A stretch of DNA of 48,497 nucleotides, taken from NCBI GenBank assembly GCA_016871725.1, contig VHCL01000008.1, forward strand, positions 1-48,497, given 5' to 3'. This document shows positions 23,533 to 38,771 of this stretch, one piece after another. Below the pieces are notes generated by a model. It was not told where the DNA came from and did no database searches. It saw nothing but the letters and a program-made list of their open reading frames with translations. The DNA comes from Verrucomicrobiota bacterium (GTDB lineage: Bacteria > Verrucomicrobiota > Verrucomicrobiia > Opitutales > UBA953). A program made the position numbers and the translations under genes. Each line of letters opens with the position of its first letter. Position 1 is the first letter of the stretch.

Positions 23533-24216
23533 TTACTTGGTCTCGAGCGGATGCTCCTTGAGGAGGTCGGCCGGATTGTACTGGGCGCGGTTGCCGATGG
23601 CCTTGCGGATCTCGGCGACCTTGGTGTCCATGACGGGCTCGGCCGAGTTGCCCCAGGCCTGACGGACGTAAGTCGCGATGTGGGCGACCTGGGCGTCCTT
23701 GAGGCCGGCGCCGATGTTCGGCATGTTGCCGTTGTACTTCACGCCGTTGACCTCGATCTCGCCGGCGAAACCGGCGAGGATGGCCTTGATCAGACGGTCC
23801 TCGGAGCCGGTGACCCAGATCGACTTGGCGAGCGGGGGAAAGGCGCCGGGGACGCCGAGACCGGTGGCCTGGTGGCAGGCCGCGCAGTTGGCGAGGAAGA
23901 GCTGCTCGCCCTTGACGGGATCGGGCTCGAAGGCGACCGGACCGCCGGCCGCGACCGCCTTAGGGGCGTCGAGGTCGAAGGCCGAGGCCGAGAAACCGCC
24001 CGCGGTCTTGGTGAGGTAGACGCCGGCCCAGAAGCCGAAGCCGCAGAAGAGGAAGACGATGAAGATCGGCGTGAGGGAGAAACCCTCGGCCGGCTCGTCC
24101 TTGTCGCGGGAGAGCTGGGCGTGAACCTCCACCAGGCGCCCGTCGGAGGGGCCTTCGGAGCCGGAAGGACCCCGGCGCGGGCGGTTGCTATCGGAATGAC
24201 GGTTACGGTCGTTCAT
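23533..24216 (-). CDS. Membrane-anchored monoheme cytochrome c (last gene of complex III operon)
   Basis: A 227-residue cytochrome with a 45-residue charged N-terminus, one membrane anchor (about 48-68, IFIVFLFCGFGFWAGVYL) and a periplasmic class I domain. Heme c is bound at C111-A-A-C114-H115. The axial Met is in YNGNMPNIG. The layout recalls CcoP, but with one heme instead of two. The heme domain is clearly paralogous to the cytochrome at 26214-26981: both share HQ-TGLG, FPPLA and YVRQ-GN segments. It is four bases after the CcoO-like gene. Likely role is electron transfer out of complex III. Confidence 0.9.
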   Translation of the reverse strand: MNDRNRHSDSNRPRRGPSGSEGPSDGRLVEVHAQLSRDKDEPAEGFSLTPIFIVFLFCGFGFWAGVYLTKTAGGFSASAFDLDAPKAVAAGGPVAFEPDPVKGEQLFLANCAACHQATGLGVPGAFPPLAKSIWVTGSEDRLIKAILAGFAGEIEVNGVKYNGNMPNIGAGLKDAQVAHIATYVRQAWGNSAEPVMDTKVAEIRKAIGNRAQYNPADLLKEHPLETK

Positions 24217-24220
24217 GGGT

Positions 24221-24745
24221 TCACTTCTTCAATTTGGCTTCCGGCGAGGGATAATCCTGGCGGAGGGATTTCAGGTAGGCGACGAGGGCCGTGCGCTGCG
24301 CGGCGTCCACGAAGCGGTAGGACGGGTGCCAGACCGCGCCGCTGGAGGCGGGATCGGTCAGGAGCGTCTCGACGTTGATCTGGGAGGAACGGGCGCCGTA
24401 GTTGGCGAGGTCCGGACCGAGGCGGCGCTCGCCGAGCAGCACCTGCGGCTGCAGGGCGTAGTCGCGGGCGACGGACGGACGGGCGCCGAGACCGCGGGCG
24501 AGGTCGCTGCCCTGCCCCGCCGGACGGACCTGCTGGGTATGGCAGCTGACGCAACCGAGGGAGACGTAGACGGCGCGACCTTGGATGGCCAGGCCCGGCT
24601 CGCGGGCGGGGAACAGCGCGCCGCCCTCTTCGCCGGCGGCGCGACCGAGGCCGCCGAGCTGGGACTGACCGCTGAGCACGAGCGCGCCGAAAGGCAGCGC
24701 GACGGCGAGGAAGACGCCGGCCAGGAGAGTGTTGAGGTTCTTCAT
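24221..24745 (-). CDS. CcoO-like monoheme cytochrome c with axial Met missing
   Basis: A 174-residue protein with an N-terminal membrane anchor (about 7-25) and a heme site C65-V-S-C68-H69 followed by TQQVRP, the pattern typical of cbb3 oxidase subunit II (CHSQMIRP in CcoO). The LGPDLANYGARSS segment also matches CcoO. The expected axial-Met motif, MPxY in CcoO, reads H140-P-S-Y here. Apart from the initiator, the protein has no methionine at all. His140 is the only other histidine, so bis-His ligation of the heme is likely. The gene lies 13 bases after the CcoN-like gene. Confidence 0.88.
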   Translation of the reverse strand: MKNLNTLLAGVFLAVALPFGALVLSGQSQLGGLGRAAGEEGGALFPAREPGLAIQGRAVYVSLGCVSCHTQQVRPAGQGSDLARGLGARPSVARDYALQPQVLLGERRLGPDLANYGARSSQINVETLLTDPASSGAVWHPSYRFVDAAQRTALVAYLKSLRQDYPSPEAKLKK

Positions 24746-24758
24746 GGTGGGGGTCCGA

Positions 24759-26195
24759 TTAGTCGTGGCGGCTCGCGGGAGCCGGAGCTTTGAGGATCAT
24801 GCCGAAGGCGTTGAGGGCGAAGGCGACGTGGCCGACGAGGAGCAGCACCGAGGAGACCGTCAGCAGGAAGAACCAGGACGACTCGGCGCGCAGGACGTCG
24901 GCGTAGGCGACGGCCGGGTTGGCGAGGAGCTGACCCGTCTGCCAGCCGCCGACGAGCCAGGCGACGAGGGCGAGCAGGAAGCCGAGCGCGGTGGCCCAGA
25001 AGTGGGCGTGCACGAGCTTCGCCGACGGCCAGAGCGTACCGGTGAGGCGCGGGAGGACGAAGTAGCTCGCGCCGAAGACCACCATGGTGGCGCAACCGTA
25101 GACGAGCAGCTGCTCGAGGCCGGTCGCGAAGGAGGTGAACCGAGCGACGGCGCTCGGGGCGCGGAAGGCGAAGACGCCGCCGAGCACCCCGGCGAGGGTG
25201 AAGGCGACCGCGCCGAAGCTCACGAAGCGGAGCGTGGTGTCGTTCCAGGCGCGTCCCCAGCCGCCCTGGGTGGAGAGCGTGCCGTGGACGTTGATGGCGA
25301 TGATGATGGCCGGGATGATCATCATGGCGGCGGCGACGACGCCGGTCGACTGGAGCCAGAGCGGCACGGGCGAACCGACGAGGGCGGCGGGACCGGTCCA
25401 GCCGGCGAAGAGGAAGAACGTCCAGAAGGCCACCGGCGCGAGGTAGTAGCCGGTGAGCGTGCGCTCGAGGACCTTGGGGAGGAAGTAGTAGATGGCGGCG
25501 AGGGCCGAGGCGCCGAACCAGAGCTGGAGCAGGTTCGCGACGAACCAGCTGTGCGCGACGGCCTGCACCACGCCGGAGGCGGGCTGCCACAGGACGAGGA
25601 GCTGCGCCAGGAGGTAGACGAGCGGGAAGGCGAACGAGGCGCCGACCACGAACCACTGGGAGGCGAACGTGTGGCCGGTCGGACGGCGCGCGAAGGCGAC
25701 GATCGGCCAGAAGCCGGCCAGCAGGAAGGCGACCGCGAGGACGGGCCCGACCTCGCGCGGGAAGTCGAGCAGACGGTAGCCGCTCATCTCGCCGGCGAAG
25801 ACGCGCGCCACGCCGTAGGTGAGCGCGAGGTTCCACGCCACGCCGCCGAGCTGGGCCAGCCAGCCGTTGCGGAACTCGAAACGACCGAGCTGCGAGAGCA
25901 GCCAGAGGTTGAGCGCGAAGAAGGCGTTGAAGCCCCAGCCGTAGACGAAGAGGTCCTGCTGGGCGGCGGCGACGCGGCCGGGCGTGAACCAGGAGCATTC
26001 CCGGAGGACGCCGACCGAAGAGCCGAGGCCGAGCGCGGCGATCACGCCGAGCACCGAGGCCACGAGCAGCCAGATCACGGCGGAGACGAAGAAGAGGAGG
26101 AACGGGCCACGGAGCGAGGCCTCGACGCGGGAGACGCGGACGTCGCCTTCGGGAGGACGGCCCTGCGGGCGGCCGGAACGATTATCCTGGGTCAT
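24759..26195 (-). CDS. CcoN-like heme-copper oxidase subunit I lacking all heme and CuB ligands
   Basis: A 478-residue integral protein with about 12 membrane segments that follows cbb3 subunit I (CcoN) along its length: PGR...GFNAFFAL, WF-ANLL...AIYYFLPKVLER, FWTFFLFAGWTGP...LWLQSTG, YFVLPRLTGTLWPSAKLVHAHFW. From remembered CcoN patterns, the six metal-ligand histidines are all replaced. The low-spin heme His of RPLHTN is Gln79. The CuB His of WWYGHN is Ala220. The HH pair of AGPHH is Ala270-Ala271. The HVH of TIGHVHSG is Leu360 and Gln362. It therefore cannot be an oxygen-reducing subunit. It lies among the complex III genes and probably scaffolds the flanking cytochromes. Confidence 0.85.
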   Translation of the reverse strand: MTQDNRSGRPQGRPPEGDVRVSRVEASLRGPFLLFFVSAVIWLLVASVLGVIAALGLGSSVGVLRECSWFTPGRVAAAQQDLFVYGWGFNAFFALNLWLLSQLGRFEFRNGWLAQLGGVAWNLALTYGVARVFAGEMSGYRLLDFPREVGPVLAVAFLLAGFWPIVAFARRPTGHTFASQWFVVGASFAFPLVYLLAQLLVLWQPASGVVQAVAHSWFVANLLQLWFGASALAAIYYFLPKVLERTLTGYYLAPVAFWTFFLFAGWTGPAALVGSPVPLWLQSTGVVAAAMMIIPAIIIAINVHGTLSTQGGWGRAWNDTTLRFVSFGAVAFTLAGVLGGVFAFRAPSAVARFTSFATGLEQLLVYGCATMVVFGASYFVLPRLTGTLWPSAKLVHAHFWATALGFLLALVAWLVGGWQTGQLLANPAVAYADVLRAESSWFFLLTVSSVLLLVGHVAFALNAFGMILKAPAPASRHD

Positions 26196-26213: not shown

Positions 26214-26973
26214 TTATTTGAGGCCGAGTTCGGCGGTGGTCCACGGAGCCGTGCGGCCGGCGTTGGCGGCGCGGATCGCCTTGACCTGGTCGGCGGTGAC
26301 CGGGTTGCCCTGGTTGCCGAAGCTCTGGCGGACATAGGTGAGCACGTCGGCGATGTCGGCGTCGGAGACGCCGGCGACCGGAGGCATCATGCTGTTGTAG
26401 GTCATGCCGTTGACGGTGATCGGGCCCATGAGGCCCTGGAGGATGAACTTCACCGGCAGCTCGGGATTGCCCACGACGATCGGGGCGTTGGCGAGCGGCG
26501 GGAAGACGGGCGGCAGACCGAGTCCGGTCGGCTGGTGGCAGGCGATGCAGGTGCGCGCGTAGACGGCGGCGCCGCGCTTCATCTGCTCGGGGTCGGCCTT
26601 GACGAAGGCGCCGGCCGCGGCGGCGGGCGCGGCCGGAGCCGCGGCGGGCGCCGGCGCGGGACCGGCGGCGGCCTGGAGCTTGGCGACGACCTTCGGGTCC
26701 TGGGCGACGAGGGCGACGGCGTCCTTGAGGGGGATGCGGAAGGTGCCGTCGGCGTTGCGGGCCGGCTCGGTGAGGAGGGCCTGCGCCTTCTTGGCGTTCT
26801 CGGCGCGCAGTTCCTTCTGGGCCTGGCGACGGGCGGCGTCCTCGTTCGGGCCCTGACGGAGCGCCAGGTAGGAGTAGCCGGTGACGATAAGGCCGGCGGC
26901 CAGCAGGGAGACGGCGCCGAGCCAGACGGCGACCTGGCCGGGGATCAGCGGGCGGTTCCCGGAGGAAGAATGA

Positions 26974-26981
<8 letters not shown>
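26214..26981 (-). CDS. Membrane-anchored monoheme cytochrome c downstream of actF
   Basis: A 255-residue protein with a membrane anchor (about 17-38), a charged helix (45-70), a RIPLKDAVALV segment (about 82-92), an Ala/Pro-rich linker (105-125) and a class I cytochrome domain. Heme is bound at C145-I-A-C148-H149, with the axial Met in YNSMMPPVAG. Its start overlaps the end of actF by eight bases, so it is translated with complex III. It is paralogous to the cytochrome at 23533-24216, and the two bracket the CcoN/CcoO-like pair. A role as membrane-tethered electron acceptor of complex III is inferred. Confidence 0.9.
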
Positions 26982-28245
<1,264 letters not shown>

Positions 28246-28252
28246 GGACGGA

Positions 28253-28966
28253 TTACTTGATTTGGGCCTTCACGGCGGCGGGGGCGAGTCCGGGCGGGCA
28301 GTTCTGGGAGAGCTGCAGGGCGCGCAGGTAGGCCACGACGGCCCAGCGCTCCTCGGGGGAGAGCTTGTCGCCGTAACCCATCATGGTGTTCTTGCCGTTG
28401 GTGATGACGTCGTAGAGCTGGCCGTTGGGGTAGGCGCGGATGACCGGCGTCTGGAGGTTGGCGATCGTCACGATGGCCACGTCGCCCTCGAGCGCGGAGC
28501 GCACCTTCATGATGCCGTTGCCGTCGGCGGCGTCACCGTGGCAGACGGCGCAGTAGACCTGGTACCTGGCCTGGCCGAGGGCGAGCACGGCGGCGTCGAC
28601 CGCGTAAGGCTGGGGCTGGCCCTTCGCGAGCTTCAGCGACTGCGTCGGGAAGCCCGCGAGGAAGGCGCCCTTGGCGTCCTTGCCGGAGACGAACGACGGG
28701 TTGAGGGATTCGGCGCGACGGTAGTCGGCGGAGAAGACCTTGAGGGGCTCGAGGCCGTTGCCGCGCGCGACGGTGCCGGCGACGGGCGGACGGGCGTCCC
28801 GGCCGTCGGCGAAGAACTTGTTCTCCCCCTGGGCCTTGTACTTGTTCTGGTAGTCCATGTCGTCGAAGACATAGACGGGCGTGTCCTTGGACACCTTGCC
28901 CTGGAAGCCGAGGAAGCTGATCGTGGCGACGACCGCGACGGCGAGGAATGCGAGGTAACGGGTCAT
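28253..28966 (-). CDS. actE: Alternative complex III monoheme cytochrome subunit ActE
   Basis: Periplasmic monoheme cytochrome of complex III, 237 residues. A signal anchor covers about 1-20. The DDMDYQNKYKAQGENKFFADGRDARPPVAGTV region (about 35-66) is the ActE hallmark. Heme is bound at C139-A-V-C142-H143, with a Met ligand in NTMMGYG. The chosen ATG at 28966 begins MTRYLAFLAV; an in-frame upstream extension to 29038 would overlap actD and gives no sensible signal. The gene follows actD by 10 bases. Confidence 0.93.
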   Translation of the reverse strand: MTRYLAFLAVAVVATISFLGFQGKVSKDTPVYVFDDMDYQNKYKAQGENKFFADGRDARPPVAGTVARGNGLEPLKVFSADYRRAESLNPSFVSGKDAKGAFLAGFPTQSLKLAKGQPQPYAVDAAVLALGQARYQVYCAVCHGDAADGNGIMKVRSALEGDVAIVTIANLQTPVIRAYPNGQLYDVITNGKNTMMGYGDKLSPEERWAVVAYLRALQLSQNCPPGLAPAAVKAQIK

Positions 28967-28976
28967 GGGGGGCGGA

Positions 28977-29519
28977 TTAGTCGCGGATGACGGTGATCTC
29001 CTGGCCGCCGAGCGACTGGAGGAAGTTGCGCGACTCATCGAGATGGAACCGCGGGTCGCGGGCCTCGAGCACGATCATGAACGTGTCGTCGGAAACGCGC
29101 GCGAAGTTCGGGAGGTCGAACAGCGGATGGTTGTGGCGCGGGAGGCGGTTGAAGATGAACTGGCCGAAGAAGGTGCCGAAGGCGGCGAACAGGATCGTGC
29201 ACTCGTAGAGCACCGGGAACGGGAAGATCACGCTCCAGTAGGGCTTGCCGCCGACGATCAGCGGGTAGTCGTACGAGTTCATGTACCAGGTGAGGAGGCA
29301 GCCGGTGATGAAGCCGGTGACGCCGCCCAGCAGGGTCAGGCGCGGGACCGGGGAGCGCGGCAGGCCCATGGCCTGGTCCATCCCGTGGATCGGGAAAGGC
29401 GTGTGCACGTCCCAGTTCTTCCAGCCGGCGTCGCGCACCTTCTCGGCGGCGTGGAACACGTCGGAGACCTTGCGGAAAGTGCAGGCCACGCCGTGGATGC
29501 GTTCGTTGCGTTCGTTCAT
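28977..29519 (-). CDS. actD: Alternative complex III subunit ActD
   Basis: A 180-residue subunit of the DUF3341/ActD family. A cytoplasmic alpha/beta domain (VACTFRKVSDVFHAAEKVRDAG) with the signature PFPIHGMDQAMG (about 42-53) is followed by two membrane helices (about 62-80 and 98-120) and a cytoplasmic tail (FMIVLEARDPRF). The two helices pack ActC in known structures. It lies 19 bases after actC. Confidence 0.94.
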   Translation of the reverse strand: MNERNERIHGVACTFRKVSDVFHAAEKVRDAGWKNWDVHTPFPIHGMDQAMGLPRSPVPRLTLLGGVTGFITGCLLTWYMNSYDYPLIVGGKPYWSVIFPFPVLYECTILFAAFGTFFGQFIFNRLPRHNHPLFDLPNFARVSDDTFMIVLEARDPRFHLDESRNFLQSLGGQEITVIRD

Positions 29520-29538: not shown

Positions 29539-30948
29539 TCAGTGGGCGTGGGGGTCGGCCTGCGGCGCGACCATCTTCACCTCGGCCATGGGGAGCAGGG
29601 GCAGGAAGCGCACGAACAGGAGGAAGAGGACGGAGAAGAAGCCGAAGGTGCCGAAGAACGTGAAGATATCCACGATCGTCGGGGAGTAGTAGCCCCAGCT
29701 CGACGGCAGGTAGTCGTTGGCGAGCGAGGTGATGGTGATCACGAAGCGCTCGAACCACATGCCGACGTTGACGAAGAGGCAGATGATCCAGACGAGCGAG
29801 TGGTTCTCGCGGACCTTCCTGAACCAGAAGAGCTGCGGGGTGATCACGTTGCAGGACACCATGATCCAGTAGGCCCAGGCGTACTGGCCGAAGGCGCGGT
29901 TCACGAAGGCGAACTTCTCGAACGAGTTGCCCGAGTAGGCCGCGATGAAGAATTCCGTGGCGTACGCGTAGCCGACCATCGTGCCGGTCGCCAGGATGAT
30001 CTTGCACATGTTGTCGACGTGGTACTGGTTGATGACGTCGTGCAGGCGGTAGATCGCGCGCAGCGGGAGCATCAGGGTCAGCACCATCGCGAAGCCGGAG
30101 AAGATGGCGCCGGCGACGAAGTACGGGGGGAAGATGGTCGTGTGCCAGCCCGGGACGTTCGAGACGGCGAAGTCGAACGAGACGATGGTGTGCACGGAGA
30201 GCACGAGCGGGGTCGAGAGGCCGGCGAGCAGCAGGTAGGCCATCTCGAAGTTGGACCACTGGCGGTTGCCGCCGCGCCAGCCCATGGCGAGGACGCTGTA
30301 GAAGGCCTTGCGCCACCAGGTGGTCGCGCGGTCGCGGATCGTGCCGAGGTCCGGGATCATGCCCATGTACCAGAACAGCGTCGAGACGGTGAAGTAGGTC
30401 GAGACCGCGAAGACGTCCCACTCGAGCGGCGAGCGGAACTGCGGCCAGATGCCGTTCTGGTTGGGCAGCGGGAAGAGCCACCAGCCGAACCAGACGCGAC
30501 CGACGTGGAAGAGCGGGAAGAGGCCGGCGCAGCAGACCGCGAAGATGGTCATGGCCTCGGCCGCGCGGTTGATGGAGGTGCGCCACTTCTGGCGGAGGAG
30601 GCAGAGGATCGCCGAGATCAGCGTGCCGGCGTGGCCGATGCCGACCCAGAACACGAAGTTGACGATGGCCCAGCCCCAGCCCACGGGCGAACGGAGGCCC
30701 CAGGTGCCGGTGCCGGTCGAGACGAGGTAGCCGAGGCCGATGAACGTGAACGACGCGACGAAGAGCGCGACGCCGAACATGACCTTCCACCAGAGCGGAG
30801 TGTCCTCCTCGACGATCGTGCAGACCTTGTCGGTGATCCAGTGGAAGCCGCGGTTGTTGAGGATCAGCGGCGAGCGCGGGAGCTCGGCTGGGCGAACCTT
30901 GTCGAGGATCGCGGGGCGCTCCGAGGAGCTGTCGTGGGCGTGAGCCAT
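29539..30948 (-). CDS. actC: Alternative complex III quinol-site subunit ActC
   Basis: NrfD/PsrC-family membrane subunit that contributes the quinol-binding site. The 469-residue protein has about 10 membrane segments. Family marks include the loop [69 protein letters not shown] and [18 protein letters not shown]. The C-terminus ([10 protein letters not shown]) is histidine-bearing. It follows actB by 22 bases. Confidence 0.95.
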
Positions 30949-30970: not shown

Positions 30971-33900
30971 TTATTTGGCGTGGGGCTTGGCGCCGTGGGC
31001 GTCACCGTGGGCGGGAGCGGCGTGGGCGTCGCCGTGCGGGGCGCCGTGCGCCTCGCGGCCGGCCATCTCGACGCGCGAGAGCGGGACGAGGTTGGCGCCG
31101 GGCATGCGGAGGTTGAGGTTGCGCAGCTTGGCCTGGTAGGTCGTGCGCGGACGGGTGTTGAGGTAGGTCAGCGCGCCGTAGGTGCGGCTCGAAGCCTTGG
31201 CCTTGGCGACGCGGGTCTTGGGGTCGGTGATGTCGCCGAACTCGATCGCGCCGGCCGGGCAGGCCTGCTGGCAGGCGACCTTGATGGCGCCGTCGCGGAC
31301 GTTGATGTCGGCCGAATTGCGGGCGCGGACCTTGGCCTGGATCTTGGCCTCCTGGATGCGCTGGACGCAGTAGGTGCACTTCTCCATGACGCCGCGCATG
31401 CGCACGGAGACGTCGGGGTTCTTCTGCAGCTGCGGGAGGTCGGCGGGATCCTTGACCGCCTTCTCGGGTCCGAGGGGGCCTTCGTAGTAGTGGCCGTCGA
31501 CGCGCTTGTTGAAGTCGAGGAAGTTGAAGCGGCGGACCTTGTACGGGCAGTTGTTCGCGCAGTAGCGGGTGCCGATGCAACGGTTGTAGGCCATCGTGTT
31601 GAGGCCCTGGTCGTCGTGGACGGTGGCGTTGGCGGGGCAGACGGTCTCGCACGGGGCGGTCTCGCAATGCATGCACGCGACGCCCATGAAGGTGACCTGC
31701 GGGTCCTCGGGGATCGCGTTGCCGGCGGCGGCGCGGCCGTCGAAGAAGTAGCGGTCCAGGCGGATCCAGTGCATGTTGCGGCCCTTGAGCACCTGCTCGC
31801 GGCCGACGACGGGGATGTTGTTCTCGGACTGGCACGCGGTCACGCACGCGTTGCAACCGGTGCAGGTGTTGAGGTCGATCGACATGCCCCACTGCTGGAG
31901 CTGCGGGAACTTGTCCTCGTGGCCCCGCCAGACGGCGACGTTCGGGGCGACGGTGTGGTCCGGGTGCTCGTAGGCGGAGTTGCCGCGCGGGGTGGTGACC
32001 GCCTTCTGGGCGGGCGACATCTTGCCGTCCTTGCCGTAGACGGCGGGCGCGTGGCCGTCGATGCCGAGCTTGGCGAAGTCCTGGTTCTTCTTGAGGTCCT
32101 CGACGTTGCCTTCGCGGATGATGTCGCGGCCTTCCATCGACCAGTGGTCCTGCATGTTGCAGACGGCGACGGTGGCGTCCGAGAGCGTGAGCCTGGCGCC
32201 CGTGCGGACGGCGGGTTCGGCGGCGGCGACCAGCGGGTAGGCGTCGAAGCCGTTGCCGGTGACGCGGCCGGCGAGGCGTTCGTCGACGCGCGTGGCGACG
32301 CGGCCGGCGACGCGACGGCCGAAGCCGAGCTGCAGGCCGATCGTGTGGTCGGCCATGCCGGGCATGATGAAGACGGGACCGGTGACGGACTTGCCGCCCA
32401 CGGTGACGGTGGCGACGCGGCAGATCAGGCGGCCGTCGACGAGCTGGTTGATGTTCCGGTTGAGCGCGCCGATCTTGTTGATGACCATCGCCTCGGGCTC
32501 GATGGCGAGCTTCGCGGCGAACTTCGGGCTGACGAGGATGACGTTCTCCCAGACGGTCTTGGTCATGGGATCCGGAGCCTCGGCGAGCCAGCCGTTGTTG
32601 GCCAGGAGGCCGTCGCCGGCGTGGACGCTGGGGAGGAGACGGACTTCGAGGGCGTCGAAGGAGAGGGCCGGCGCCGCGTAGGCGTTGAGCGCGGCGACGC
32701 CGACGGACTGGGGCTTGGCCGCGGCGAAGGCGGTGCCGGCGAGCACGCCCTCGGCGAGCCAGGCGGCGAAGGCTTCGTCGGTGACGTTCTTCGAGAGGGA
32801 ATTGAAGGTCTCGCGGACGAGCGCGTGCGGCTCCCTGTCGGAACCGGCGAAGGGCGCGAGGACGTCGAGCTCGGTGACCGTCGCGAAGAGCGGATCGATC
32901 ATCGGCTGCACCGGCACGTAAGTGCCGTCGAGCGTGCGGCCGTCGGACCAGCTCTCGAGGTAGTGCGAGGCGGCGAGGAAGGTGCCGGCGGCGGCCTTCA
33001 CGGCGGCCGAGGTCTCGTCGAAGGACGGACCATGGTAGCCGAGGCGGACGACCTGCTTGGCGGCCTTGATCGCGGCGGCGAAGTTCACGTCGGCCGGCGC
33101 GTCGTAGACGGGGTTGCCGCCGAGGATGACGAGAGTCTTGGCCGGCTGGGCGACGAGCGTGGCGAGCGACGCGGCGGCCGGAGCCGGCGCGGCGACGTAA
33201 CGGACCGCGGCGCCGAGCGCCTGGTTCGCGAGGAAGACGGCGCGATGCGCGTCGGCGGAGAGATGGTCGCCGGCGACGATGAGGGCTTCGCCTTTGGCGG
33301 CCTTGACGAGGTCGGCCACGCATTCGGTGACCCACTTGGCGTCGACGTGGATGCCCGAGACCTTCGCCTTGAGGGCGGCGGCGTCGGCGGAACCCTTCTG
33401 CGCGAGGACTTCGGCGGCGAAGAGCAGCGCGAGGCCGGAGATGTGCGAGGAGGCGGCGCGGAGACGGTGGTCGGCGGCGGCGCCGGTGAGCGAGAAGACG
33501 GACTCGACGACGTAGAGGCGCGTCATCTTCTCGGCCTCGGCGGCCGTGTCGGCACGGCGGGCGGAGGAATAGGCGCGGGTGTCTTCGACGGTCGCGTCAT
33601 GGGCGCCGAGGAAGTCGCGGTCGAGGCTCAGCACGCGGCGGGCCTTGGCGTAGTCAGGGAGCGCGCGGGCGCCGAGGACGGCGTCGGCGCGGTTCTGGGC
33701 GACCGGGGTGTACTCGACCCAGCGGGCCTGCGGGTAGGCGGCCTTGAGGGCGGCGACGAGGCGGGCGCGCGTCGGGGAGGTGGACGGGCGGGCGAGGAAG
33801 GCGAGACCGGCGCCGGCGTCGGCCTTGGCCGAGGCGGCGAGGCCGCGGAGGAACGCGCGGGCGGCGGCGACGGAGAGGACGGAACCGTCGGCGGCGAGGG

Positions 33901-34372
33901 AAGCCTGCGCGCGGTCCGGATCGTACATGTCGAGCACGCTGGCCTGGGCGAACTTCGAGGAGGCGCCGCCGTTGGCGCGGTGGCTCGGATTGCCTTCGAT
34001 CTTGGTCGGACGATGCTGGTGCGTCTCGACGAGGATCGGCTGGTTGGCGTGTTCGCCGGGGAAGGACGAGGCGTAGTACGTGGCGACGCCGGGGATGGTG
34101 TTCTCCGGCTGCTTGGCGTAAGGAAGCGTGTGGTTGCGGGGCTCGCGGCAGCCGGCGAGGCCGAGGCCGGCGAGGCCGAACGAGGCGCCCATGAGCATCA
34201 GGAACTCGCGGCGTTCGACGGAGGAGATGGCGGAGGCGCCGTCCAGGAACTCGCGCTCGGCGCGGGTGCGGAACTCGGGCGACTTGTTGCGCTCGTCGAG
34301 GCTGCGCCAGTACGAGGGACCGGTCGGCTCGCCGGGCTGGGCCGCGGGGTGTTCGAAGACTTTCTTGCTCAT
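30971..34372 (-). CDS. actB: Alternative complex III iron-sulfur/molybdopterin-like subunit ActB
   Basis: Large periplasmic subunit of 1133 residues. A Tat signal is seen at about 53-75 (ERREFLMLMGASFGLAGLGLAGC) with a lipobox LAGC. It is followed by a molybdopterin-oxidoreductase-like domain (about 90-800) that in known complexes holds no cofactor. A four-cluster ferredoxin domain then spans about 837-1038: CTGCNACVTAC, CMHCETAPCETVC, CIGTRYCANNCPYKVRRFNF and CTYC...CQQAC. The last 30 residues are rich in GDAH-like repeats with six histidines, an unusual tail. It follows actA by 18 bases. Confidence 0.95.
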   Translation of the reverse strand: MSKKVFEHPAAQPGEPTGPSYWRSLDERNKSPEFRTRAEREFLDGASAISSVERREFLMLMGASFGLAGLGLAGCREPRNHTLPYAKQPENTIPGVATYYASSFPGEHANQPILVETHQHRPTKIEGNPSHRANGGASSKFAQASVLDMYDPDRAQASLAADGSVLSVAAARAFLRGLAASAKADAGAGLAFLARPSTSPTRARLVAALKAAYPQARWVEYTPVAQNRADAVLGARALPDYAKARRVLSLDRDFLGAHDATVEDTRAYSSARRADTAAEAEKMTRLYVVESVFSLTGAAADHRLRAASSHISGLALLFAAEVLAQKGSADAAALKAKVSGIHVDAKWVTECVADLVKAAKGEALIVAGDHLSADAHRAVFLANQALGAAVRYVAAPAPAAASLATLVAQPAKTLVILGGNPVYDAPADVNFAAAIKAAKQVVRLGYHGPSFDETSAAVKAAAGTFLAASHYLESWSDGRTLDGTYVPVQPMIDPLFATVTELDVLAPFAGSDREPHALVRETFNSLSKNVTDEAFAAWLAEGVLAGTAFAAAKPQSVGVAALNAYAAPALSFDALEVRLLPSVHAGDGLLANNGWLAEAPDPMTKTVWENVILVSPKFAAKLAIEPEAMVINKIGALNRNINQLVDGRLICRVATVTVGGKSVTGPVFIMPGMADHTIGLQLGFGRRVAGRVATRVDERLAGRVTGNGFDAYPLVAAAEPAVRTGARLTLSDATVAVCNMQDHWSMEGRDIIREGNVEDLKKNQDFAKLGIDGHAPAVYGKDGKMSPAQKAVTTPRGNSAYEHPDHTVAPNVAVWRGHEDKFPQLQQWGMSIDLNTCTGCNACVTACQSENNIPVVGREQVLKGRNMHWIRLDRYFFDGRAAAGNAIPEDPQVTFMGVACMHCETAPCETVCPANATVHDDQGLNTMAYNRCIGTRYCANNCPYKVRRFNFLDFNKRVDGHYYEGPLGPEKAVKDPADLPQLQKNPDVSVRMRGVMEKCTYCVQRIQEAKIQAKVRARNSADINVRDGAIKVACQQACPAGAIEFGDITDPKTRVAKAKASSRTYGALTYLNTRPRTTYQAKLRNLNLRMPGANLVPLSRVEMAGREAHGAPHGDAHAAPAHGDAHGAKPHAK

Positions 34373-34390: not shown

Positions 34391-35092
34391 TTAGCGGTGG
34401 CAGCCCGAGCAGCTCTGGGGAGGATTGACCTTCCAGTCGTGCACGAACTTCGTGCCGTCGGCGGTCTGCTGGGCGGGAGTGGCGGCCTGGTAGGCGAGGT
34501 CGGTGACCTTCTCGACCGGACGCAGGACCTGCTCGGGATTGCGGTGGCAATCGAGGCAGAAGGACATGTTCAGGGATTTCTGCTGGCCGACGACGACCTG
34601 CTGGTCGATGCGGCCGTGGCACTCGACGCAGCTGACGCCGCGGTTCACGTGGACCGCGTGGTTGAAGTACACGTAGTCGGGCACCTTGTGGACCTTGACC
34701 CAGCGGATCGCCTCGCCCGTCTCCATGCTCTTCTTGACGAGCGCCAGCGCGGGGCTGTCGGTCTTCACCTGGCTGTGGCAGTTCCAGCAGGTGTTGGTGG
34801 TCGGCACGTTCGAGTGGCCCGACTTGTCCACGTAGTTGTGGCAGTAGCGGCAATCGAGGCCGAGGACCGAATCAGGACCGGCGTGGAAGGAGTGGTCGAA
34901 GGCGACGGGCTGGTCGGGCGTGTATCCGACGTTCAGATACTTGTTGGTGGCGTACTCGTTGACCGCGGCGGCCACGACGACGGCGGTGACCAGGAGGCAG
35001 ACGAGGACCTGGAACGGGGCGGCGTTGATCGCCCGGGAGAAGAAGTTACCGCGGGGGGCCGGGCGGTTGAGGTATTCGAGGAGCTTGCGCAT
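34391..35092 (-). CDS. actA: Alternative complex III pentaheme cytochrome ActA
   Basis: First gene of the complex III operon, a 233-residue pentaheme cytochrome with one N-terminal membrane anchor (about 27-45). Five CxxCH sites are seen: C81-H85, C102-H106, C155-H159, C179-H183 and C228-H232. The spacing and the FDHSFHAGPDSVLGLDCRYCH and YFNHAVHVNRGVSCVECHGRI segments are standard. It takes electrons from the ActB clusters and passes them to ActE or soluble carriers. The start at 35092 is followed by a basic leader and anchor. The promoter should lie in the A/T-rich region 35130-35300. Confidence 0.95.
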   Translation of the reverse strand: MRKLLEYLNRPAPRGNFFSRAINAAPFQVLVCLLVTAVVVAAAVNEYATNKYLNVGYTPDQPVAFDHSFHAGPDSVLGLDCRYCHNYVDKSGHSNVPTTNTCWNCHSQVKTDSPALALVKKSMETGEAIRWVKVHKVPDYVYFNHAVHVNRGVSCVECHGRIDQQVVVGQQKSLNMSFCLDCHRNPEQVLRPVEKVTDLAYQAATPAQQTADGTKFVHDWKVNPPQSCSGCHR

Positions 35093-35410: not shown

Positions 35411-36187
35411 TCAGCGGCTCAGGGACTTCGCGGCGCTGCGGACGAGGTCCACGAAGCTCTTGGCCTCGAGGGAGGCGCCGCCGATCAGGCCGCCGTCGAT
35501 GTCATGCTCGGCGAGGAGGGCGTCGGCGTTGTCCGGCTTCATCGAGCCGCCGTAGAGGATGCGCACGCGGGCCGCGGTCTCGGCGCCGAACTGGCTGACG
35601 AGCAGCGAGCGGATGAAGGCGTGGACCTCCTGGGCCATGGCCGGGGTGGCGGTCTTGCCGGTGCCGATCGCCCAGACGGGCTCGTAGGCGATGATGACCT
35701 GTTCGGCCTTGCCCGCGGGGACGCCGGCGAGACCGAGCTCGACCTGACGCTTCACCACGGCGTTCGTGGTGCCGGCTTCGCGCTCCGAGAGCAGCTCGCC
35801 GACGCAGAGGATGGGCTTGAGGGACGCGGCCAAGGCGGCGTTGACCTTGCGGTTGATGAAGGCGTCGTCTTCGCCGAACAGGCTGCGTCGCTCGCTGTGG
35901 CCGAGGATCACGTAGCCGACGTGCAGGTCGCGGAGCATCGCGGCCGAGACTTCGCCGGTGAAGGCGCCGTTGGCCTTGTCGTGCATGTTCTGGGCGCCGA
36001 CGGCGAGGTGGGTGCCTTCGGCGGCCGCGCTCACCGCGGAGAGCGCGGTGAAGGGCGGGCAGAGGACCACCTGGACGGCGGACTCGATGCCGACGGCGGC
36101 GGCGATGGCCTTGGCGAGCTCGGTGCCTTCGGTGGCCGTCTTGTTCATCTTCCAGTTACCGGCGATGAGGGGGGTGCGGGCGGACAT
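35411..36187 (-). CDS. tpiA: Triose-phosphate isomerase
   Basis: Interconverts dihydroxyacetone phosphate and glyceraldehyde 3-phosphate. The 258-residue protein has normal length. Catalytic residues are Lys13 in GNWKMNK, the His of ILGHSERR and the Glu of AYEPVWAIGTG, with the phosphate loop YGGSMKPDNA. The frame is open far upstream into pgk, but ATG 36187 gives the canonical MSARTPLIAGNWKMN. It is 41 bases after pgk and probably co-transcribed with it. Confidence 0.97.
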   Translation of the reverse strand: MSARTPLIAGNWKMNKTATEGTELAKAIAAAVGIESAVQVVLCPPFTALSAVSAAAEGTHLAVGAQNMHDKANGAFTGEVSAAMLRDLHVGYVILGHSERRSLFGEDDAFINRKVNAALAASLKPILCVGELLSEREAGTTNAVVKRQVELGLAGVPAGKAEQVIIAYEPVWAIGTGKTATPAMAQEVHAFIRSLLVSQFGAETAARVRILYGGSMKPDNADALLAEHDIDGGLIGGASLEAKSFVDLVRSAAKSLSR

Positions 36188-36228
36188 GGGTGTGGTGCGG
36201 ATGTGTGTGGATGAGGTTCCGGAGGGGG

Positions 36229-37473
36229 TCAGGCCGAGAGCGCCGCGACGCCGGGGAGGGTCTTGCCTTCGAGGTACTCGAGGGAGGCGCCGCCGCCGGT
36301 CGAGCAATGCGAGACCTTGGCGTCGACGCCGAACTTCTTGGCCGCGGTGGCGGTGTCGCCGCCGCCGACGATGGTGATCGCGCCGCGTTCCGTGGCCTTG
36401 GCCACGGCCGCCGCCATGGCCTTGGAGCCGACGGCGAACTTCTCGAATTCGAACACGCCGCACGGGCCGTTCCAGACCACCGTGCCGGCGCGGCCGATGG
36501 CGGCCTCATAGAGTTTGATGGACTCGGGACCGCAGTCCATGCCTTCCCAGCCGGCGGGGATGCCGGACTGCATGGTGGCGGGCCGGGTGTTGGAATCAGG
36601 GGAGAACTTGTCGCCGCAGACGAAGTCGACCGGGAGCGTGACCTTCACGCCGCGGGCCTTGGCCTTGTCGAGCAGCTCCTGGACGATCTTGGCGCCTTCG
36701 GCGTCGAAGAGGGAGTTGCCGATCTCCATGCCGTCGCAGACCTTGCGGAAGGTGTAGGCCATGCCGCCGCCGATGATGATCTCGTCGGCCTTCTCGATGA
36801 GGTTGCGGATGAGGGGGATCTTGTCGGCGATCTTGGCGCCGCCGAGGATGGCGAGGAGCGGGCGTTGCGGGTTGTTGAGCACGGTGTCGAAGGCCTTGAG
36901 CTCGGCTTCGAGCAGGAAACCGGCGGCCTTGCGGGGCAGATTGACGCCGACCATCGAGGAGTGGGCGCGGTGGGCGGTGCCGAAGGCGTCGTTCACGTAG
37001 ACGTCGCCCAGACGCGAGAGAGAGGCCCTGAATTCGGCCACTTCGGCGGGGTCGGCCTTCTGGCTGGTGCCGTCCTCGAGCTTCACCTTGCCCTCTTCCT
37101 CGATGTGGAAGCGCAGGTTCTCGAGGAGCAGGATCTCGCCGGGCTTGAGGGCCTTGGCGGCGGCTTCGGCCTCGGCGCCCACGCAGGCGGCGACGAACTT
37201 CACCGGCTTGCCGAGGAGCTTCTCGAGCTCGGCGGCCACGGGGCGGAGGGAGAACTTCTCGACGACCTTGCCGTCCGGACGGCCGAGGTGGGACATCAGC
37301 ACCAGGGAGGCGCCGCCTTCGAGCAGGAACTTGATCGTCGGCAGGGCCGCGGCGATGCGCTGGGTATTCGTGATGGCGCCGGTCTTCTTGTCCTGGGGGA
37401 CGTTGAAGTCGACACGGACGAGGACACGCTGGCCCTGGACGGAGCCGAGTTCGCGGAGGGTAGGAGCAGGCAT
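36229..37473 (-). CDS. pgk: Phosphoglycerate kinase
   Basis: Transfers phosphate between 1,3-bisphosphoglycerate and ADP. The 414-residue protein has normal length. Signature elements are [11 protein letters not shown] near the N-terminus, [34 protein letters not shown], the nucleotide loop around WNGPCGVFE and GGGDTATAA near the C-terminus. The ATG 37473 gives [12 protein letters not shown]; longer in-frame sequence upstream lacks family similarity. It is separated from gap by 164 bp holding a terminator, so pgk-tpiA likely has its own promoter. Confidence 0.97.
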
Positions 37474-37580
37474 GGTGGTGAAAGGCAGCAGAGAAAGGCG
37501 TAAGCCGAGGGGTGGGAAGAACAAACCGCCCACGGCCTCGCAAACCGTCGTAACCGCCCCACCCCACCCCGTCCGGAGCC

Positions 37581-37616
37581 CAAAACAAGACAGGCGGCCC
37601 GGATGGGCCGCCTGTC
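37581..37616 (-). terminator. Rho-independent terminator of gap
   Basis: A perfect 12-bp stem (37589-37600 with 37605-37616, loop GGAT) starts 22 bases past the gap stop. On the minus strand it is followed by TTGTTTTG, a good T-rich tail. It separates gap from pgk-tpiA at the transcript level. Confidence 0.88.
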
Positions 37617-37637
37617 GCGGAAGAACCTGAGCCGGGC

Positions 37638-38771
<1,134 letters not shown>

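Follow-up and report, generated by a model that had tools for sequence, protein, structure and literature searches.

The Operon and Its Gene Content

The window, by which we mean the whole 48,497-nucleotide stretch of DNA that was analysed, contains one tight minus-strand operon in which the genes for ActA-F, an extra cytochrome c and CcoN-like, CcoO-like and CcoP-like proteins (N, O-like and P-like below) follow one another with overlaps or gaps of only a few bases (Table 1). The operon thus consists of an alternative complex III (ACIII) and then a cbb3-like trio. The ActA-F set adjoins the CcoN-like gene and was recognized by Pfam in the case of ActD and the NrfD-type subunit, and by motif in the case of the pentaheme ActA and the monoheme ActE. 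A preliminary interpretation made from the letters and their open reading frames, the sequence-only reading, had placed the gene inside a complex III operon, a claim that can now be refined in that the complex is ACIII, which is unrelated to bc1. Both partners of the CcoN-like protein are remote homologues and both are monoheme; the FixO match of the CcoO-like protein has an E-value of 6.5e-12. A gapA-pgk-tpiA glycolysis cluster (window 35411-38684, minus) immediately precedes the act operon and shares its strand.

The source genome, a draft of 2.37 Mb, consists of 178 contigs, and its near relatives are Opitutales/Opitutae metagenome assemblies. It carries two further COX1 genes: an intact A-type CoxA with COX2, COX3 and CtaG as neighbours, and a fused CcoNO that has all of its ligands and is separate from the act operon. 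No bc1 cytochrome b was found in this 2.37 Mb draft, and ACIII is therefore the likely quinol:cytochrome c route.

Table 1. Genes of the act operon in the window, listed from the downstream to the upstream end
Feature	Position	Strand	Basis or remark
CcoP-like monoheme cytochrome c	23533..24216	-	CXXCH at 111; Met165 kept
CcoO/FixO-like monoheme cytochrome c	24221..24745	-	CXXCH at 65; His140 in place of the usual sixth-ligand Met
CcoN-fold protein without heme or CuB ligands	24759..26195	-	alignment, structure prediction
Additional monoheme cytochrome c (cytX), encoded between ActF and the CcoN-like gene	26214..26981	-	typical of the window's own clade
ActF	26974..28245	-	operon position and conserved order; no Pfam match
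ActE, monoheme cytochrome c	28253..29038	-	overlaps ActD; first Met possibly further downstream
ActD	28977..29519	-	PF11821, E 2e-61
ActC, NrfD-type membrane subunit	29539..30948	-	PF03916
ActB, molybdopterin-oxidoreductase-like and iron-sulfur subunit	30971..34372	-	assigned from sequence and order
ActA, pentaheme cytochrome c	34391..35092	-	five CXXCH

A CcoN Fold without Metal Ligands

The CcoN-like gene is an intact reading frame, from ATG to stop, that encodes 478 amino acids and has both the subunit I fold and sequence homology to CcoN of the C-type oxidases. In HMMER searches the protein matches Pfam COX1 (PF00115) with an E-value of 1e-32, and CcoN of P. stutzeri (3mk7) aligns with its residues 35-473 (E 4e-21). 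The AlphaFold model, a 12-helix body with a mean pLDDT of 93.8, finds its best match among solved structures in cbb3 CcoN (Foldseek E 8e-19), on which it superposes with a Z score of 49.5 and 1.7 A over 444 residues. The protein does not reach TIGR00780, the NCBIfam ccoN equivalog (583 bits), against which it scores 109 bits, compared with 224 bits for a liganded ACIII-linked relative. The reading frame is likewise intact in all relatives, and the dN/dS of 0.13-0.25 against them shows that purifying selection acts on the protein.

Metal ligands are what define subunit I of the heme-copper oxidases. In the HMMER alignment, 3mk7 residues H60, H207, Y251, H257, H258, H345 and H347 (chain numbering) are paired with Q79, A220, A264, A270, A271, L360 and Q362, such that the window protein reads QAAAALQ at the seven columns where the liganded pattern is HHYHHHH. 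Absent, then, are the low-spin heme b His pair (Q79 and Q362), the heme b3 His (L360), the three CuB His (A220, A270 and A271; the CuB ligands His207/257/258 carry the same numbers in PMC3578206) and the active-site Tyr (A264). The sequence-only reading had named these same six His replacements and had proposed that the catalytic Tyr region was lost as well, and both claims held exactly; the CcoN fold that it presumed was confirmed by the structure prediction. Several second-shell residues that are invariant in 55 liganded relatives are also changed (W216 to S, R76 to A, H352 to R, R445 to L and S253 to A). The placement of the E323 column in the alignment is unreliable.

Ligands at shifted positions, which would have refuted that reading, were looked for and not found: relatives of about 38% identity hold HHYHHHH in the same columns of an ungapped alignment, and a scan for conserved His, Met, Cys and other residues ruled out such ligands as well. 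Sequencing error was ruled out by the recurrence of the pattern in 91-93%-identical relatives from independent assemblies and by the low dN/dS given above. By its defining ligands, then, the protein is not a heme-copper oxidase enzyme, and by descent and fold it is a member of the superfamily; what we say of its oxygen reduction and heme b content is inferred from sequence alone, and a cofactor-free state is the likely condition, deduced in the same way.

Three Ligand States among the Relatives

Relatives came from three sources: 388 genomes of the phylum, which were searched at the protein level; named genome contigs, which were scanned; and 384 genomes of the class, which were searched with a profile and gave a match in 313, some of these being ordinary CcoN. 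About 150 family sequences were inspected. All seven residues (HHYHHHH) are kept in 55 of them. Ten others, all of family code f12 (L054, L115-L118, L120-L122, L125 and L134), have retained the two low-spin heme b His (columns 79 and 362) but no residue of the binuclear centre, in the pattern HN[SA]QRYH, and their second shell retains R76 and W216 throughout and R445 in nine of the ten. The ACIII-linked CcoN of f12 thus appears to be a b-heme protein unable to reduce oxygen, although this too is an inference from its residues. A third set of 82 sequences keeps at most two of the seven residues (41 of these keep none), and the second shell is mostly lost too. Partial states are rare (L135 HRYHHHH, L138 HHCSHHH, L129 YHVYYHH and L154 YAYAHEH) and may represent recent losses in progress. 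Because partial states are so few and the f12 state is coherent, the data suggest that metal sites were lost as units and the binuclear centre first, the order being inferred.

Two records call for separate comment. One genome (G636) has two copies, L175 and L176 (contigs C47 and C78), of which the act-operon copy is in the heme-b-only state and the other is fully liganded, with only an O-like gene found beside it; this second copy may stem from a contaminant. A contig filed as the betaproteobacterium Polynucleobacter meluiroseus (L006) carries an Opitutales-type operon at 91% identity and is probably a binning error in the public record.

Repeated Loss of the Ligands

Rooting on true CcoN shows that the liganded state is ancestral and that the ancestor was a genuine C-type oxidase, as 55 relatives keep all seven residues. 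The sequence-only reading can accordingly be refined: a series exists that begins, in the same operon, with a genuine C-type oxidase, and the window protein lies at its degenerate end. How often the ligands disappeared is harder to establish. A careful 38-row tree built with the ligand columns masked requires four state changes, none of 200 bootstrap trees of this set needs only one, and a topology in which the ligand-free rows form one clade is rejected by the AU test, and with it a single origin of the loss, at p 7e-8. The clearest case is L069, which sits inside liganded f2 sequences, and with this row left out the AU p-value is 0.0096. A quick 115-row tree instead groups most of the ligand-free rows, and a tree of ActB plus ActC interleaves them and asks for nine changes. 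Fast-evolving rows may attract each other and exchange of modules is possible, so that while the ligands were lost more than once, the number of losses remains uncertain.

Gene Order and Partner Cytochromes

The order ActA-F, (cytochrome c), N, CcoO-like, cytochrome c is found at every ligand-free locus with enough flanking sequence. The CXXCH of the O-like protein is invariant across 64 ligand-free and 25 liganded loci, and that of the P-like protein is invariant whatever the state of N, with the sixth-ligand Met165 kept too. The sixth-ligand Met of the O-like protein is kept in 25 of 26 liganded rows; at ligand-free loci the position is His in the window's clade (His140), Cys in f10 (e.g., L101) and missing in others. 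It is possible, on this inference from sequence, that the heme c of the O-like protein has been retained but retuned. Two irregular loci were also seen: at L064 (G385, a relative in the same family) the O-like open frame has 665 residues and is perhaps a fusion, and at L019 (BGOI01000001.1) ActF is split into two open frames, probably by a sequencing frameshift.

A Genomic Link to True Oxidases

Outside Opitutales, a CoxA/CoxB set usually lies directly downstream on the same strand, as at L093, where the order is ActA-F, N, O, P, CoxA, Cox3, Cox4, CoxB; no Opitutales locus, the window included, has an adjacent oxidase gene. An adjacent CoxA was considered as a predictor of ligand loss and fails, given that the liganded L078, L180, L182 and L184 have CoxA too and no Opitutales locus does. 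In 80 genomes that were inventoried, a ligand-free N is always accompanied by at least one other COX1, and a liganded N is the only COX1 in two (G001 and G146). Seven Opitutales genomes without N are also without ActD and without any COX1. From this joint absence with ACIII and COX1, together with the constant presence of a further COX1, it follows that the module tracks aerobic respiration through ACIII, and we infer from gene content and ligand loss that it does so yet cannot itself reduce oxygen. Four close N-less relatives from the window's family (G149, G176, G305 and G612; genus code g2) have no ActD and no COX1, and to judge from these absences they likely represent a sister genus that does not respire aerobically.

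Proposed Role and Alternative Explanations

We lean, by a modest margin, toward the view that the CcoN-like protein is a catalytically dead and probably cofactor-free descendant of CcoN that serves as a scaffold for c-type cytochromes between ACIII and a true oxidase. The ancestor would have been a working oxygen reductase encoded with ACIII, whose frame then fed its own heme b and b3-CuB centre. The oxygen-reducing centre would have been given up, and then usually the low-spin heme b, with the helical body kept; N would now be the membrane frame of an ACIII supercomplex, anchoring the CcoO-like and CcoP-like cytochromes beside ACIII. Electrons would pass from quinol to ACIII, to the c hemes of the O-like and P-like proteins and on to the true terminal oxidase, which in many relatives would be the A-type enzyme encoded directly downstream and which the window's own genome would encode elsewhere. 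The fold, the loss of ligands, selection, the conservation of the operon, the kept c-heme motifs and the joint absence with ACIII and oxidases are shown; the cofactor-free state in vivo, the electron route and physical association with ACIII or an oxidase are inferred, the last from linkage and joint presence or absence only. The sequence-only reading had proposed much the same, a scaffold without cofactors by which cytochromes dock to complex III or which links that complex to a true oxidase, and had looked to homologues beside act genes; many ligand-free relatives exist there, all in the ActA-F order where the flank suffices, and the proposal is supported insofar as an inferred role can be. 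Against it stand the lack of direct evidence that N, O or P binds ACIII or an oxidase, the Opitutales loci without an adjacent oxidase gene, and the replacement of the O-like sixth-ligand Met in the window's clade, which may have retuned the heme or made it less fit for electron transfer. A bolder version, which we consider as likely to fail as to hold, posits a class-wide respiratory supercomplex in which a former cbb3 oxidase lost its function repeatedly and in steps, first at the binuclear centre and then at heme b; what is left would be a frame without cofactors, whose old c-type cytochromes connect ACIII to another oxidase.

Several other explanations can be envisioned. N may still bind heme through ligands at new positions and take part in redox chemistry, perhaps as a transmembrane b-heme wire. 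In the f12 relatives, both low-spin heme b His and the second shell of heme b do remain, H215, H396 and H456 are conserved and clade-specific in the window's clade, and H398 is present in nearly all members. However, neither low-spin His is present in the window protein, nor is the propionate-side Arg (R76 to A, R445 to L). H398 and H456 also occur as conserved residues in liganded relatives, where they are not ligands, and most other ligand-free clades lack H215 and H396. All this makes a hidden heme improbable. It is similarly doubtful that N is some other membrane device, a proton path or quinone site that aids energy conservation by ACIII. A selected 12-helix body inherited from a proton-pumping enzyme and placed beside ACIII would suit such a role, but the protein has lost S253, Y264 and H352, which are invariant in liganded relatives and lie close to the active site or proton route, and the ligand-free clades do not all share a new conserved path of acidic or polar residues.

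Less plausible still is an assembly or insertion factor for the cytochromes of ACIII or the oxidase that is not a lasting subunit; the operon position and the lack of cofactors would fit this equally well, but the liganded sisters are core structural subunits by homology, and unchanged size and topology bear no mark of a switch. These three alternatives are less economical than the scaffold but are not excluded. That the gene is a decaying pseudogene, or that assembly or alignment produced an artefact, can be all but dismissed: ligand loss is indeed the first expected result of oxidase decay, but the reading frame is intact in all relatives, the dN/dS values are those of a selected gene, the fold is confident, the pattern recurs in dozens of independent genomes and the alignment is ungapped.

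Relation to Known Systems and Significance

The window protein shares its whole-length fold, sequence homology and CcoO-like and CcoP-like neighbours with CcoN of cbb3 oxidases (3mk7, 8smr), from which it differs in the lack of six His and the Tyr, its short monoheme partners and its location in an act operon. The clustering of ACIII with a C-type oxidase is already known from Opitutaceae and verrucomicrobial methanotrophs, where the oxidase was regarded as a cbb3 enzyme (PMC8498564 and PMC6688271, citing Refojo 2010); the gene cluster is the same, and the liganded family members are probably this oxidase. Neither paper mentions ligand-free or heme-b-only forms, and no account of such a CcoN was found in the open-access literature searched, with subscription papers, including Refojo 2010, outside its scope, so that an earlier description is not excluded. 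In the ACIII-aa3 supercomplex of Flavobacterium johnsoniae, ACIII is joined to an oxidase with direct electron transfer (PMC8552683), a role that matches the one proposed here, except that the supercomplex in our case is inferred and that no CcoN-like subunit appears to be described in that paper. The fused cbb3 oxidase of Nitrospina, for which an unusual replacement of Trp203 is reported, is likewise a C-type protein with unusual residues near CuB, but it keeps most cofactor sites and, unlike the window protein, has not lost all of its ligands (PMC3578206).

If the proposed role is correct, a widespread and selected subunit I without ligands would stand as a pseudoenzyme at the heart of respiration, and an oxidase would be convertible into structural wiring for another complex. 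The natural series of all ligands, heme b only and none makes the contribution of each cofactor site testable. It also allows a test of which supercomplex components electron transfer by itself requires. Verrucomicrobiota genomes that have been credited with an ACIII-linked high-affinity cbb3 oxidase may have no working one there.
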